Positions 1-51,829 of a stretch of 51,829 bases of DNA are shown in pieces; the first letter of the stretch is position 1; each line of letters begins with the position of its first letter. Below the pieces are notes generated by a model. It was not told where the DNA came from, did not search any database, and saw nothing but the letters and a program-made list of their open reading frames with translations. This stretch comes from an uncultured Gammaproteobacteria bacterium (GTDB taxonomy: Bacteria > Pseudomonadota > Gammaproteobacteria > Pseudomonadales > Pseudohongiellaceae). Location of the stretch: the NCBI GenBank assembly GCA_913058135.1, contig CAJXPR010000012.1, positions 1 to 51,829 on the forward strand, read 5' to 3'. Both the position numbers and the translations under genes were made by a program.

Positions 1-38
1 GTAGATCGTCGGCAGCGTCAGATGTGTATAAGAGACAG
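1..38. other. Untrimmed Nextera (Tn5) adapter, left end
   Basis: Bases 6-38 are the Illumina Nextera read-1 adapter, ending in the 19-bp Tn5 mosaic end AGATGTGTATAAGAGACAG at 20-38. Bases 1-5 (GTAGA) match the last five bases of the i5 index seen complete at the other end. This is synthetic sequence. Reading frames that begin here acquire the artefactual N-terminus MYKRQ. Native DNA starts at base 39. Confidence 0.98.
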
Positions 39-46149: not shown

Positions 46150-47544
46150 ATGAGCAAATCCCGACGCCGTCGGCAGAAACTGCCTGCCGAAGCGGTTACC
46201 ATCTGTATTGAGCGCCTGAGCCATGAGGGCCGGGGTGTGGGCAAAATCGACGGCAAAATAGCCTTTGTTGATGGCGCACTGCCGGGCGAACAGGTCACTG
46301 CGGTTTACACATCACAGCGTAGCCAGTATGACGAGCTTAAAGTACAGGATATTTTGCTGGCCTCCCCGCAACGAGTGACGCCCCCGTGCGCGGTGGCATC
46401 GATATGCGGTGGCTGTGTGCTGCAGCACCTGTCACCGATGGCCCAGCTTGAACTCAAGCAGCAGGTGCTGACCGACCAGCTCAAACACAGTGGTGGAATC
46501 AGCGAATTTACCGTGTTGCCGGCGATGGCGGGAGACACTGAACATTATCGTCGCAAGGCGCGTCTTGCCGTGCGCTACGTACACAAAAAAGCGGATGTTC
46601 TGGTAGGGTTCCGTGAGGCTGCCAATACCTTTATCACGGATATGCAGCATTGCTCCGTACTGGTCAGACCCGTCGCCGATCTGATCAGCCCATTGCGTGT
46701 GCTGATCCTGTCGCTCGATGCCTGCCGTGACATACCGCAGATTGAAGTGGCCGTGGGCGAAACCCGTTGTGTCCCTTCCGAGCAATTGTCGCAGGCGCTA
46801 CGTGTGGCACTGGTATTGCGCCACCTTGCGCCTTTGGGCGATGCGGATCGACAACGTTTGCAACAGTTCGCGGACCTGCATGGTATCGAATGGTTCCTGC
46901 AGTCAGGCGGCCCGGATACGGTGCAGAAATTCTGGCCCGAAGACGACAATACATCGCTGTTCTATTATTTACCACAACGCACCGACAGCGGTTTGCCAGC
47001 GATTACCATGGAGTTTCAGCCGGGTGACTTCACTCAGGTAAATGCGGGCATCAATCGCCTGATGATTGATCAGGCACTGGATCTGCTGGATCTGCAGCCA
47101 CAGGATCAGGTGTTGGATCTGTTTTGCGGACTGGGTAATTTTACGCTTGCCATCGCCCAGCGGTGCCGGACGGTGACCGGCGTAGAAGGCAGCGACGATA
47201 TGGTTAAACGTGCCGCCCTGAATGCGCAGCGAAACGGGATCACCAACGCCAGTTTTCATGCAGCGGACCTGTTCACGGATTTTGATCAGCAAACCTGGGC
47301 AAAACCTGCTTACGACAAACTTCTGCTGGACCCGCCGCGCTCCGGTGCAATCGAGATCGTTAGCCGGATTCGGGAGCTGTTGCCACGGAAAATTGTCTAT
47401 GTGTCGTGTAACCCGGCCACGTTGGCAAGGGACGCTGCCGAATTGCACCGCCAAGGGTACGACCTGACATGCGCCGGTGTTATGGATATGTTTCCGCATA
47501 CCGGCCATGTAGAATCCATGGCGCTATTTGTTCTCAGGACATAA
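46150..47544 (+). CDS. rlmD: 23S rRNA (uracil-1939-C5)-methyltransferase RlmD
   Basis: Adds a methyl group to U1939 of 23S rRNA. The 464-residue product has an N-terminal TRAM domain (about 12-70), a 4Fe-4S site formed by Cys80, Cys86, Cys89 (CAVASICGGC) and Cys168 (MQHC), and an AdoMet-dependent domain (LDLFCGLGNFTLAIA) with the catalytic Cys in YVSCNPATLARD. It lies 9 nt after cysM and 8 nt before relA. Confidence 0.95.
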   Translation: MSKSRRRRQKLPAEAVTICIERLSHEGRGVGKIDGKIAFVDGALPGEQVTAVYTSQRSQYDELKVQDILLASPQRVTPPCAVASICGGCVLQHLSPMAQLELKQQVLTDQLKHSGGISEFTVLPAMAGDTEHYRRKARLAVRYVHKKADVLVGFREAANTFITDMQHCSVLVRPVADLISPLRVLILSLDACRDIPQIEVAVGETRCVPSEQLSQALRVALVLRHLAPLGDADRQRLQQFADLHGIEWFLQSGGPDTVQKFWPEDDNTSLFYYLPQRTDSGLPAITMEFQPGDFTQVNAGINRLMIDQALDLLDLQPQDQVLDLFCGLGNFTLAIAQRCRTVTGVEGSDDMVKRAALNAQRNGITNASFHAADLFTDFDQQTWAKPAYDKLLLDPPRSGAIEIVSRIRELLPRKIVYVSCNPATLARDAAELHRQGYDLTCAGVMDMFPHTGHVESMALFVLRT

Positions 47545-47552
47545 ACCAGATT

Positions 47553-49595
47553 ATGGTCCAGGTACGCGAAGAATATTCTTTCAATTCCGACGGCAGTGTC
47601 AACTTTGAGCAATGGCTGGCACGCCTGGAAAGCTATGTCAGTTTATCCCGACATGAAGATATCCGTCGCGCCTGCCAGTTGAGTTGGCAGGTAGAGTGTC
47701 ATGCCATCGCTGCCAGCAATGCCTGGTCTCCGGGTGTCAGCGCTTACCGCACTGGTCTGGAGATGGCCGAAATTCTCGCACAATTGCATCTGGACAGCGA
47801 AGCCATCATCGTTGCGCTACTTTATCGCCCGGTCCGGGAGTCGAGGTTGCCACTGGAACAGGTGCGGGAAACCTTTGATCCGAACATTGCCACACTGCTC
47901 GAAGGTGTGCTGCGCATGGCGGCAATTAATGAAACCGACACCAGCAAGACACGGGTTCTGGGCCAAAGCCAGGACCAGATGGAAAACGTCCGCAAAATGC
48001 TGCTGGCCATGGTGGACGATGTTCGCGTCGCATTGATCAAACTGGCAGAGCGTACCTGTGCGATTCGATCCGTGAAAACGGCCAGTCAGGAAAAACGACT
48101 GCGGGTCGCCCGAGAAGTATTTGATATCTACGCGCCGCTGGCTCATCGCCTGGGAATCGGTCAGCTCAAATGGGAGCTGGAAGACCTGTCATTTCGTTAT
48201 TTACAGGCGGAAAATTACAAACGCATTGCCGGACTGATAGATGAACGCCGCGTTGATCGCGAACGTTTCATTACCGAAGTCACCGAAGAACTGCGCCGCC
48301 AGTTCAGCCGCGCGGGTATCGATGCGGAAATTAATGGTCGGGCCAAGAGCATTTACAGTATCTGGCGAAAAATGCAGCGCAAGCATCTCGATTTCTCGCA
48401 AATATTTGATATACGTGCAGTGCGTGTGCTGGTGCCGGATATCAGAGACTGTTACGCCGCACTCGGTATTGTCCACAATCTGTGGCGGGTGATACCCAAC
48501 GAGTTTGATGATTACATTGCCAATCCCAAGGAAAATGGTTACCAGTCTTTGCATACCGCAGTAATTGGTCCTGATAACAAGGTTTTCGAGATCCAGATCC
48601 GCACCTTTGCCATGGATGACGACGCGGAGCTCGGTGTTTGTGCACACTGGCGTTACAAAGAGGGGATTGTGGACCCCGACTACCGCGATGGATTTGATGA
48701 CAAAATTGAATGGCTGCGACAGGTGCTCGCCTGGCACGATGAGATGGGCATGGTGGGCGGTCTGGCAGAACAACTACGCAGCGATGCGAGCGCCGACGAT
48801 CGTGTTTATGTGTTTACGCCGGAAGGGCATGTGGTGGACCTGATGGCCGGCGCGACGCCGCTGGACTTTGCTTACTATGTCCACACACAGGTCGGCAATC
48901 ACTGTTCCGGCGCCCGGGTCAACGACAAGATCGTGGCACTGAACTATCAGCTAAAGACCGGCGACCGGGTGGAAATTCTATCCAGCGAACTGAATGAACC
49001 CAGCCGCGACTGGTTGAAACCACACTTGGGTTACGCCAACACTCCCCGGGCACGCGCCAAGTTGGTGCAGTGGTTCAAAACCCAGGATCGCGGACAGAAT
49101 ATTGCCTATGGCAAACAATGGCTGGAGACCGAACTTAAACGGCTGGCGATTCGCCAGCTGCCATATGAGGAGGTATCGCGGCGACTTGGTTGTCGAAATG
49201 CCGAAGGGCTGTTTGTGTCGATAGGCACCGGCGCGATAGAAGTGCACGAGGTGATTGACACGGCACAGCAGTTGTCGCTGCTATCCGGCAAGCAGGATCT
49301 GTTTAGCGATGAAATGTCTGAAAATCGCTTGACTGACAACAGTCCGGTAACCGTTCATGTGCTGGTTATTGCGCGGGACCGGGCGGGTCTGTTGCGTGAC
49401 GTGACCACCATTCTCGCCAACGAAGCTGTTTACGTGCTGGCGGTTAACACCCGCAGCGACAAACGCGACGCAACAGCCTCCATACAACTGGAAATTGAAA
49501 TCTCTTCATTTCACAGTCTGGCGCGGGCACTCGACCGCCTGAACGACCTCGACAGTGTGATAGAAGCTCGACGATTGGAGGAGGATGACCTGTGA
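47553..49595 (+). CDS. relA: (p)ppGpp synthetase RelA lacking the zinc-finger domain
   Basis: Ribosome-associated stringent-response enzyme. Residues 1-180 are a degenerate HD domain with no HD motif. The synthetase domain (about 235-365) has EFDDYIANPKENGYQSLHT: EFDD marks the RelA type and predicts a monofunctional synthetase. A TGS domain (about 415-477) and a helical region (480-575) follow. In E. coli the next region is the conserved-cysteine domain (HHIARCCxPIPGD). Here residues 575-597 (SLLSGKQDLFSDEMSENRL) replace it and lead directly to ACT (598-678, ARDRAGLLRDVTTILANE). The protein has 680 residues against 744 in E. coli. ATG 47553 is the family start. mazG overlaps the stop. Confidence 0.95.
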   Translation: MVQVREEYSFNSDGSVNFEQWLARLESYVSLSRHEDIRRACQLSWQVECHAIAASNAWSPGVSAYRTGLEMAEILAQLHLDSEAIIVALLYRPVRESRLPLEQVRETFDPNIATLLEGVLRMAAINETDTSKTRVLGQSQDQMENVRKMLLAMVDDVRVALIKLAERTCAIRSVKTASQEKRLRVAREVFDIYAPLAHRLGIGQLKWELEDLSFRYLQAENYKRIAGLIDERRVDRERFITEVTEELRRQFSRAGIDAEINGRAKSIYSIWRKMQRKHLDFSQIFDIRAVRVLVPDIRDCYAALGIVHNLWRVIPNEFDDYIANPKENGYQSLHTAVIGPDNKVFEIQIRTFAMDDDAELGVCAHWRYKEGIVDPDYRDGFDDKIEWLRQVLAWHDEMGMVGGLAEQLRSDASADDRVYVFTPEGHVVDLMAGATPLDFAYYVHTQVGNHCSGARVNDKIVALNYQLKTGDRVEILSSELNEPSRDWLKPHLGYANTPRARAKLVQWFKTQDRGQNIAYGKQWLETELKRLAIRQLPYEEVSRRLGCRNAEGLFVSIGTGAIEVHEVIDTAQQLSLLSGKQDLFSDEMSENRLTDNSPVTVHVLVIARDRAGLLRDVTTILANEAVYVLAVNTRSDKRDATASIQLEIEISSFHSLARALDRLNDLDSVIEARRLEEDDL

Positions 49596-50446
49596 CAGAT
49601 CAGCAAGACAACAGATATGCTGCGTCGGTGGCCCAACTGGCACACCTGATGGCCTGCCTGCGTGACCCGGTCCACGGTTGTGCCTGGGATCGCAAACAAA
49701 CACTGTCGTCGCTTACCCGCCACACCCTGGAAGAAGTGTACGAGGTCATTGATGCAGTCGAGCAAGGTAATCCTGACAAGATCTGTGATGAGTTGGGAGA
49801 TCTACTTTTCCAGGTCGTATTCTACGCGCGCATAGCGGAAGAAGATGGAAAATTCGATCTTGGCGCAGTTGCAGACACCATCACCAGGAAACTTCTGCAC
49901 CGTCATCCACATATATTTCCAGATGGCAGCCTGGCCAGTTTTGGACAGCCGTCAGGGCTTTCCGCAGAAGAAGTAGAGCGTAACTGGGAACTGATCAAGA
50001 ACGCTGAACGCGAAGCATCTACCAGCAGCGATGAGCCAGTGAGCGTGATGGACGATGTTGCCAGTGCGATGCCAGCGATTGAGCGGGCGGGCAAACTGCA
50101 AAAAAGGGCAGCATCAGTTGGATTTGACTGGCAGCACACCAGCGACGTGCTGGCCTGTCTTCAGGAAGAAATAGGCGAGTTGCAGCAAGCACTGGAGGGC
50201 AATGACACACAGGCTCAGGAACATGAGTTGGGCGATGTGCTGTTTACCTGTGTTAATCTCGCCCGACATTTGCGAGCCGATCCCGAAAGCGCACTGCGTT
50301 TGGCCAATCAACGTTTTGAACGCAGGTTTCGTGATATAGAGCAGCGAGCTCGCCTGGCTGGCAGTAGTGTCGCCGACAGTGATGCTGCGACCCTGGATCG
50401 ATATTGGCAGGCGGCCAAAGAATTCGAGAACAAGAACGATTACTGA
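49592..50446 (+). CDS. mazG: Nucleoside triphosphate pyrophosphohydrolase MazG
   Basis: Hydrolyses NTPs to NMPs and limits aberrant or excess nucleotides; in E. coli it tempers (p)ppGpp after starvation. The 284-residue product has two MazG repeats: the first LEEVYEVIDAVEQG with ELGDLLFQVVFYA (about 46-80), the second LQEEIGELQQALE with ELGDVLFTCVNLARH (about 190-225). Both carry the EExxE metal sites and an ELGD element. GTG 49592 overlaps the relA stop by 4 nt and has a strong GGAGGAGG site upstream. The relA-mazG coupling supports a shared role in nucleotide stress; mazE and mazF are absent. Confidence 0.96.
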   Translation: MTDQQDNRYAASVAQLAHLMACLRDPVHGCAWDRKQTLSSLTRHTLEEVYEVIDAVEQGNPDKICDELGDLLFQVVFYARIAEEDGKFDLGAVADTITRKLLHRHPHIFPDGSLASFGQPSGLSAEEVERNWELIKNAEREASTSSDEPVSVMDDVASAMPAIERAGKLQKRAASVGFDWQHTSDVLACLQEEIGELQQALEGNDTQAQEHELGDVLFTCVNLARHLRADPESALRLANQRFERRFRDIEQRARLAGSSVADSDAATLDRYWQAAKEFENKNDY

Positions 50447-51783: not shown

Positions 51784-51829
51784 CTGTCTCTTATACACAT
51801 CTGACGCTGCCGACGATCTACTCTGTGTA
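51784..51829. other. Untrimmed Nextera (Tn5) adapter, right end
   Basis: The mosaic end CTGTCTCTTATACACATCT (51784-51802) continues as the reverse complement of the read-1 adapter to 51816. Then come TCTACTCT (51817-51824), the reverse complement of i5 index AGAGTAGA, and GTGTA, the start of the flow-cell segment. It mirrors the left end and is synthetic. Confidence 0.98.

Follow-up and report, generated by a model that had tools for sequence, protein, structure and literature searches.

RelA proteins without the RIS domain in an uncultured gammaproteobacterium and its relatives

The RelA encoded in the window, i.e., the whole analysed stretch of 51,829 nucleotides from an uncultured gammaproteobacterium of the family Pseudohongiellaceae (assembly GCA_913058135.1, contig CAJXPR010000012.1), lacks the domain that corresponds to residues ~585-660 of E. 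coli RelA, and this absence was confirmed. The missing domain is named RIS (Loveland et al., 2016, PMC4974054) or CC (Atkinson et al., 2011, PMC3153485), and ZFD elsewhere. The short protein is kept under purifying selection, and the same domain has been lost separately in a second family.

Results

A short linker replaces the RIS domain in the window RelA

The gene order at the locus is cysM-rlmD-relA-mazG-adk, and relA is a single intact frame with zero frameshifts. The features of the locus are:

46150 to 47544, + strand: rlmD, upstream neighbour of relA; the rlmD-relA order is as in E. coli
47553 to 49595, + strand: relA, gene of a predicted RIS-less (p)ppGpp synthetase, 680 sense codons plus stop (ORF, Pfam, alignment)
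47697 to 48158, + strand: pseudo-hydrolase HD domain (HD_4), residues 49-202 (Pfam, alignment)
48336 to 48665, + strand: synthetase domain (RelA_SpoT) of the EFDD type, residues 262-371 (Pfam, alignment)
48804 to 48980, + strand: TGS domain, residues 418-476 (Pfam, alignment)
49044 to 49286, + strand: helical (AH) domain including the terminal linker helix 2, residues 498-578 (profile search, structure model)
49287 to 49346, + strand: 20-residue linker, residues 579-598, in place of the E. coli RIS/ZFD (alignment, model)
49347 to 49574, + strand: ACT domain (ACT_4), residues 599-674 (Pfam, alignment, structure model)
49592 to 50446, + strand: mazG, downstream neighbour of relA, which directly follows rlmD in RelA-less relatives

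E. coli RelA (NP_417264.1), a six-domain long RSH, occupies the same slot after rlmD and shares with the window RelA the EXDD synthetase, a dead HD domain, the TGS domain with His432, the helical domain, and ACT, but it has residues ~585-660 (RIS/ZFD/CC) where the window RelA has only the linker. The HD domain of the window RelA is without the HDxxED motif and reads YRPVRE where SpoT reads HDVIED in the alignment. E. coli His432, the residue of TGS that contacts the tRNA CCA end, corresponds to His444, and Asp675 in ACT corresponds to Asp609. The ACT domain was recognized by PF13291 with 53.4 bits (cut-off 27), and in the structure model its strands and helices follow each other as in ACT-like folds. 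The complete protein passed the cut-off of the subfamily model TIGR00691 (512.3 bits vs 499.2) and scored under the curated cut-off of the NCBIfam RelA equivalog PRK10872 (685.3 bits vs 728). SpoT of the same genome bin is a separate gene with 35% identity, and the window RelA falls with the RelAs of its own order in RelA trees, from which SpoT was left out. Locus position and similarity thus point to an orthologous RelA, and the kept residues predict an active synthetase of the EXDD type.

The absence of RIS was evident from several comparisons. A phmmer search against E. coli RelA aligned residues 11-573 of the query with residues 10-562 and residues 600-676 with residues 666-742. The Pfam model RelA_AH_RIS (PF19296) matched E. 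coli RelA at model positions 4-180 of 185, and the window RelA at positions 5-83 only, which is the helical half. As this model also stops at positions 6-84 in a RIS-bearing sister sequence (L047), i.e., misses a diverged RIS, it cannot decide on the presence of the domain alone, and the alignments do so. The stretch that separates E. coli columns 561 and 667 comprises 26-28 residues in 15 RIS-less sequences of the family and 10-35 in the RIS-less RelAs of the second family (f177, see below), as against 91-92 in the sister clade that has RIS and 95-107 in 18 further RelAs. The characteristic CC...HxxxC feature of the domain is not present in the window RelA, and a search of the complete genome bin did not turn up a RIS encoded on its own, SpoT being the only other PF19296 match. 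In the AlphaFold model, the helical domain ends with a helix at residues 564-578 and the ACT domain is well predicted, with a pLDDT under 50 at linker residues 585-595. The structure models had good confidence within domains but a pTM of only 0.49 and 0.53, and the arrangement of the domains was therefore left uninterpreted.

The original prediction had described relA at 47553-49595 as one frame of 680 codons, frameshift-free at the junction, in which the helical region passes through about 20 residues into ACT with the Cys domain absent. The ORF reading, Pfam, phmmer, and the alignments all agree with this description, and its coordinates and residue numbers were correct to within a few residues. 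Its view that synthetase, TGS, and ACT are intact and that the EFDD type is kept is likewise in line with the Pfam domains found and with the catalytic residues, which are kept in 15/15 RIS-less sequences of the family. Its inference that ribosome docking or autoinhibition of this RelA must differ was supported in part, as nothing in the present data shows a changed autoinhibition.

The same junction occurs in relatives

As the source genome is a fragmented bin of 188 contigs and as transposon-adapter sequence is found at both contig ends, an assembly deletion or a frameshift artefact confined to one genome could have been suspected. This explanation has practically no probability left and was rejected, as it is refuted by relatives: the same RIS-less RelA junction is found in 14 of the 15 genomes of the window's genus (g1), its own included, and in the one genome of genus g7, and the carriers comprise isolates and a one-contig genome (G009). 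The two checks proposed with the original prediction, one for the same clean gap in close relatives and one for an assembly deletion, hence both came out in its favour. The only genome of the genus that gave no RelA match is a bin of 72% completeness, and none of the 14 matching genomes of the genus has an internal stop. The isolate records with a RIS-less RelA are LSUCC0112, Pseudohongiella sp. O18, and P. nitratireducens SCS-49, and the named relatives at at least 74% identity include records titled Pseudohongiella.

The adapter itself is an exact 19-base sequence, presumably of the Nextera type, at window positions 20-38 (- strand) and 51784-51802 (+ strand), with 0 occurrences expected by chance. 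The final ORF, which runs from 51209 up to the window's end, enters this adapter, and its C-terminal letters are therefore non-genomic.

RelA is absent from other genera of the family

RelA-level matches were obtained in 28 of the 137 genomes of the family that were searched. Besides g1 and g7, they occur in 13 of 14 genomes of genus g5, whose frames comprise 745-795 residues with a main match ending at 577-599. The 107 genomes of the genera g2, g3, g4, g6, and g8, some of which are incomplete, had SpoT-level matches at most, with 7 being matchless, and SpoT was the only long RSH found in these RelA-less genera. At all 21 RelA-less loci examined (L186-L192, L194-L207), mazG directly follows rlmD, and relA is missing. 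In a species tree calculated from seven S10-operon proteins, the RelA-less groups (g2,g3,g8) and (g4,g6) are successive branches below g5+(g1,g7), with supports of 94 and 100 for g1+g7+g5+g4+g6 and of 95 and 99 for g1+g7+g5; here and in the RelA trees, supports were read split by split. This branching order implies that relA was either lost twice or lost once and later regained in its old slot.

The SpoT proteins of the family have HDxxED and a RIS with CC in 19/19 cases examined, with RFKD (15) or KFKD (4) as synthetase motif and, counted from the alignment, GRG (17), GKG (1), or ERG (1) in the RIS loop. With HDxxED, RIS, and RFKD/KFKD kept, a bifunctional-looking partner is present.

The short RelA is under purifying selection

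We compared 15 unique RIS-less RelAs (clade A), 13 RIS-bearing RelAs of the sister clade (clade B), and 65 other RelAs (set C). In four pooled pairs of clade A (dS 0.08, 0.15, 0.16, and 1.08), the whole gene had a dN/dS of 0.036, with domain values of 0.013 (SYNTH), 0.017 (TGS), 0.057 (helical domain), and 0.061 (ACT); linker helix 2 together with the linker reached 0.159. For clade B, three pairs yielded 0.051 overall and 0.052 in ACT. The short RelA is thus under purifying selection. For f177, a dN/dS of 0.10 was obtained in each of the two least diverged RIS-less pairs, with 0.22 and 0.21 for ACT, and the 60 RIS-less pairs were mostly near saturation (0.38), so that their dN/dS was set aside.

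G251, D275, R280, Y319, H323, and E335 (E. coli numbering) are kept in 15/15 sequences of clade A, and the same holds for H432, P411, and D675. R670 is found in 0/15 of clade A and in only 5/65 of the other RelAs, and its absence in clade A therefore says little. Tree lengths relative to SYNTH were 4.1 in A vs 2.5 in B for ACT, 3.6 vs 2.5 for the helical domain, and 1.4 vs 1.0 for TGS, which is a sign of a constraint on the C-terminal half of A that is altered and not absent. The faster helical, ACT, and, to a lesser degree, TGS domains of clade A, together with an ACT conservation that in f177 is lower in RIS-less than in RIS-bearing sequences, would fit a C-terminal half on which constraint is somewhat relaxed.

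The RIS loop of the sister clade is eroded

In clade B, C612, C613, H634, D637, and C638 of RIS are kept in 13/13 sequences each, but R629 is replaced by Asn, G630 by Gln, His, or Glu, and F624 by Cys, again in 13/13 each. The residues of set C at these positions are R629 in 60/65 (2 more have Lys), G630 in 65/65, and an aromatic residue at 624 in 65/65. In the E. coli complex, R629 and C612/C613 sit at the A-site finger, with R629 near the 23S phosphates at A885-A887, and the toxic effect of an RRM-less RelA is countered by the exchanges R629E and C612A C613A (Takada et al., 2020, PMC7058999). The supports were 97 for A, 100 for B, and 100 for A+B in a focused RelA tree, and 70 for A, 100 for A minus the g7 sequence, 100 for B, and 100 for A+B in a wider RelA tree. 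The Arg629-Gly630 loop is mostly eroded in the RIS-bearing relatives of both families; as the loop state in the ancestor of A is not visible, the view that erosion came first rests on these relatives.

RIS was lost separately in a second family

Among 145 genomes sampled across the order, a RelA running continuously into ACT was found in 4 genomes of the window's family, in 5 genomes of f177, and in 0 elsewhere, and these 5 were all f177 members of the sample. According to match coordinates, 48 of 120 f177 genomes, spread over many genera, have a RIS-less RelA. We aligned 28 of these 48 and 37 f177 RelAs of normal length. In L311, an N run covers RIS, which leaves 36 readable longer sequences, and L277 with an in-frame TAA was dropped before the counts; G496, one of the 48 matches, also carries an in-frame TAA and lies outside the fetched set. 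H432 and P411 are kept in 28/28 RIS-less sequences, and D675 is kept in 19/28 and replaced by Asn in 9/28. In the longer RelAs, C612 and C613 are kept in 36/36, but R629 in only 2/36. Of the 66 f177 loci retrieved, 54 have the gene flanked by rlmD and adk, and a further 11 show only adk.

In the wider tree, all 65 sequences from f177 group together (support 100), and A+B is a distinct clade (100), which indicates that RIS was lost separately in the two families. Within f177, the RIS-bearing L310 (G443) is nested inside the RIS-less clade, and the RIS-bearing L313 (G419) with a canonical GRG, unlike nearly all of its relatives in f177, adjoins it (98), so that RIS was either lost more than once in f177 or regained there. 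Recombination, regain, or contamination (6% in G419) may account for the placement of L310 and L313. The two families are neighbours at weak support, 66 in the RelA tree and 63 in the S10-operon tree, and the loop may therefore have eroded once in a common ancestor before RIS was deleted in each family separately. The rpsC locus of the f177 genome G458 (L326) groups with another family (G053, support 100); we took this as contamination and excluded G458 from f177 in the S10-operon tree.

Among the matches listed for a class-wide sample of 140 genomes, the window's own RelA was the only one with a helical domain running into ACT. RIS was seen in 19/19 shorter or odd RelAs that were retrieved, in 17 of them by motif; L226 and L231 (KCCKA) had failed the motif, L226 because of the position filter, and RIS was confirmed there by reading the sequences. 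L222 (G256) and L224 (G202) stop at RIS or shortly behind it, with ACT unseen, and resemble reported ACT-less RelAs. Genome G042 of family f9 has an ACT-like stretch in a 292-residue frame (contig 4, 86191-86415, - strand) without a full RelA match; its relA is possibly broken or split, with RelA-level matches present in other f9 genomes. G315 and G345 of family f180 have two RelA-level matches each, ~180 kb apart, on contigs C4 and C3, respectively.

The ribosomal contact sites are essentially unchanged in the genomes compared

In E. coli, the docking sites of RIS are the A-site finger and S19, and RIS is described as the major ribosome-binding domain of RelA; ACT contacts the A-site finger (A896) and L16 (R50, R51), linker helix 2 packs on ACT, and His432 of TGS holds the tRNA CCA end (Loveland et al., 2016). 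On ribosomes without A-site tRNA, RIS and ACT together serve as anchor (Loveland et al., 2016). The residues R50-R51 of L16 were kept in 28/28 genomes, a set outside of which the window's own bin lies. 23S matches were obtained for 12 of 35 genomes, with none for the window's own bin and 6 g5 genomes. The A-site-finger contacts 883-887, 892-894, and 896 were as in E. coli in 11/12 genomes with one locus each, including 5/5 genomes of the window's genus with a 23S match, and G048 differed at two positions. F60 of S19 is Ser in 3/10 genomes of the genus, but as it varies in relatives too, this is uninformative. A ribosome-side change accompanying the loss of RIS was thus rejected, as L16 and the finger nucleotides are essentially unchanged in the genomes covered.

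Discussion

We consider it probable that the window RelA is a functional enzyme minus RIS that would still sense A-site deacyl-tRNA and would bind unstarved ribosomes weakly or not at all. This reading is drawn from sequences: H432, P411, and D675 are kept, as are the L16 and finger contacts, and published work points in the same direction. An E. coli strain without the A-site finger passes the SMG test, with residual RelA function (Kudrin et al., 2018, PMC5829649), and the ZFD mutants C612G, D637R, and C638F complement fully at low copy (Turnbull et al., 2019, PMC6719525). From these data together, we infer that the trigger by deacyl-tRNA is kept and that anchoring is lost. The E. coli and B. 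subtilis data of Takada et al. (2020), which make RIS contacts matter, stand against this reading; in that study, B. subtilis Rel without RRM and ZFD is non-toxic.

Mechanistically, docking of RIS on the A-site finger would have decayed first, with the domain being deleted afterwards. As RIS is an insert between linker helix 2 and ACT, which pack together in ribosome-bound E. coli RelA, the rest of the protein could keep its fold without it. Uncharged tRNA would be sensed by TGS on the CCA end, by the helical domain on the tRNA, and by ACT on the A-site finger and L16. The anchoring that does not depend on tRNA would be gone, and with unstarved ribosomes bound weakly or not at all, we propose that recruitment is brought about mostly by deacyl-tRNA itself. 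SpoT, which looks bifunctional and has an intact RIS, could cover the rest of (p)ppGpp metabolism. In a more tentative extension, for which we see a somewhat less than even chance, RIS-less RelAs form a recurrent, anchor-free class that evolved at least twice in the order from enzymes with a failed loop and that is recruited in a tRNA-first manner. The order of events assumed in both readings, loop erosion and then deletion, is unclean in f177 because of L310 and L313.

A rather unlikely alternative is that RelA has been uncoupled from the ribosome and is now a constitutive low-level synthetase or one triggered otherwise, e.g., by an ACT ligand or a partner. The loss of what Loveland et al. 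(2016) describe as the major ribosome-binding domain would fit such an enzyme, as would the loss of R629 in the sister clade, the dispensability of relA, which was lost outright in the same family with SpoT being kept, and the higher relative tree length of TGS in A than in B. However, the dN/dS of TGS is close to that of SYNTH, and H432 and P411, for which a ribosome-free enzyme has no obvious need, are kept in all 43 RIS-less sequences (43/43). D675 in ACT is also invariant in clade A, though not in f177.

It is improbable that relA is decaying, i.e., that the protein is of little use and that the loss of RIS was a step towards complete relA loss. The RelA-less branches below the RelA-bearing clade, the gap between rlmD and mazG at all RelA-less loci examined, and the lack of a RelA-level match in 107 genomes (0/107, some incomplete) of five genera would all be expected from such a trend, but every domain has a dN/dS far under 1 in the four pairs, the genus genomes are free of internal stops, the catalytic residues are invariant, and the RIS-less state persists over two genera here and over many in f177. 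More improbable still is a takeover of the docking job of RIS by a changed linker or helical domain, by a partner in trans, or by the RIS of SpoT: an intact SpoT RIS is available in all family genomes examined, but no stand-alone RIS was found in the bin, the segment of linker helix 2 and linker is short, differs in length between sequences, and evolves fast, and the sequence offers no sign of a replacement.

Natural departures from the six-domain architecture have been described before. The RelA of Francisella tularensis likewise has a naturally shortened C-terminus but is the mirror image of the window RelA, as it is without ACT and keeps the conserved cysteines (Wilkinson et al., 2015, PMC4708007). 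It was weakly activated by stalled complexes, with ribosomes of other species (Wilkinson et al., 2015), and Takada et al. (2020) call this activation potent. The SpoT proteins of Haemophilus ducreyi and Actinobacillus pleuropneumoniae also have an internal deletion upstream of a kept ACT (Atkinson et al., 2011), but they lost the helical domain and CC, whereas the window protein is a RelA with the helical domain kept. In plant Rsh1, TGS, helical domain, and ACT remain as here and CC/RIS is unconserved (Atkinson et al., 2011); this protein belongs to another RSH group, and its CC is described as unconserved rather than removed. In engineered RSH truncations, ZFD is likewise absent or point-mutated, but in the parts of these reports available to us it is removed only along with RRM/ACT, and a deletion of RIS only was not met there (Takada et al., 2020; Turnbull et al., 2019). 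The rare exceptions named by Atkinson et al. (2011) are ACT-less RelA, RshC, Salinispora RshA, the two SpoTs, and plant Rsh1, and a RelA minus CC alone is not among them in the accessible portion of that paper. A limited search of open-licence full text found no description of a RelA minus RIS alone.

For annotation, the sub-threshold score with PRK10872 means that full-length RelA models may miss RIS-less RelAs. For the biology, arguments on the roles of the RIS anchor and of tRNA sensing in the control of RelA draw on mutants of E. coli and B. subtilis. The present data suggest that the RIS anchor is dispensable in an enzyme that is still kept by selection. If true, a tRNA-first mode would separate pre-docking by RIS from sensing by TGS, helical domain, and ACT, which are combined in E. 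coli. With a natural removal of RIS only in two families, and with relatives that have an eroded loop or no relA, nature provides a panel on the need for pre-docking.
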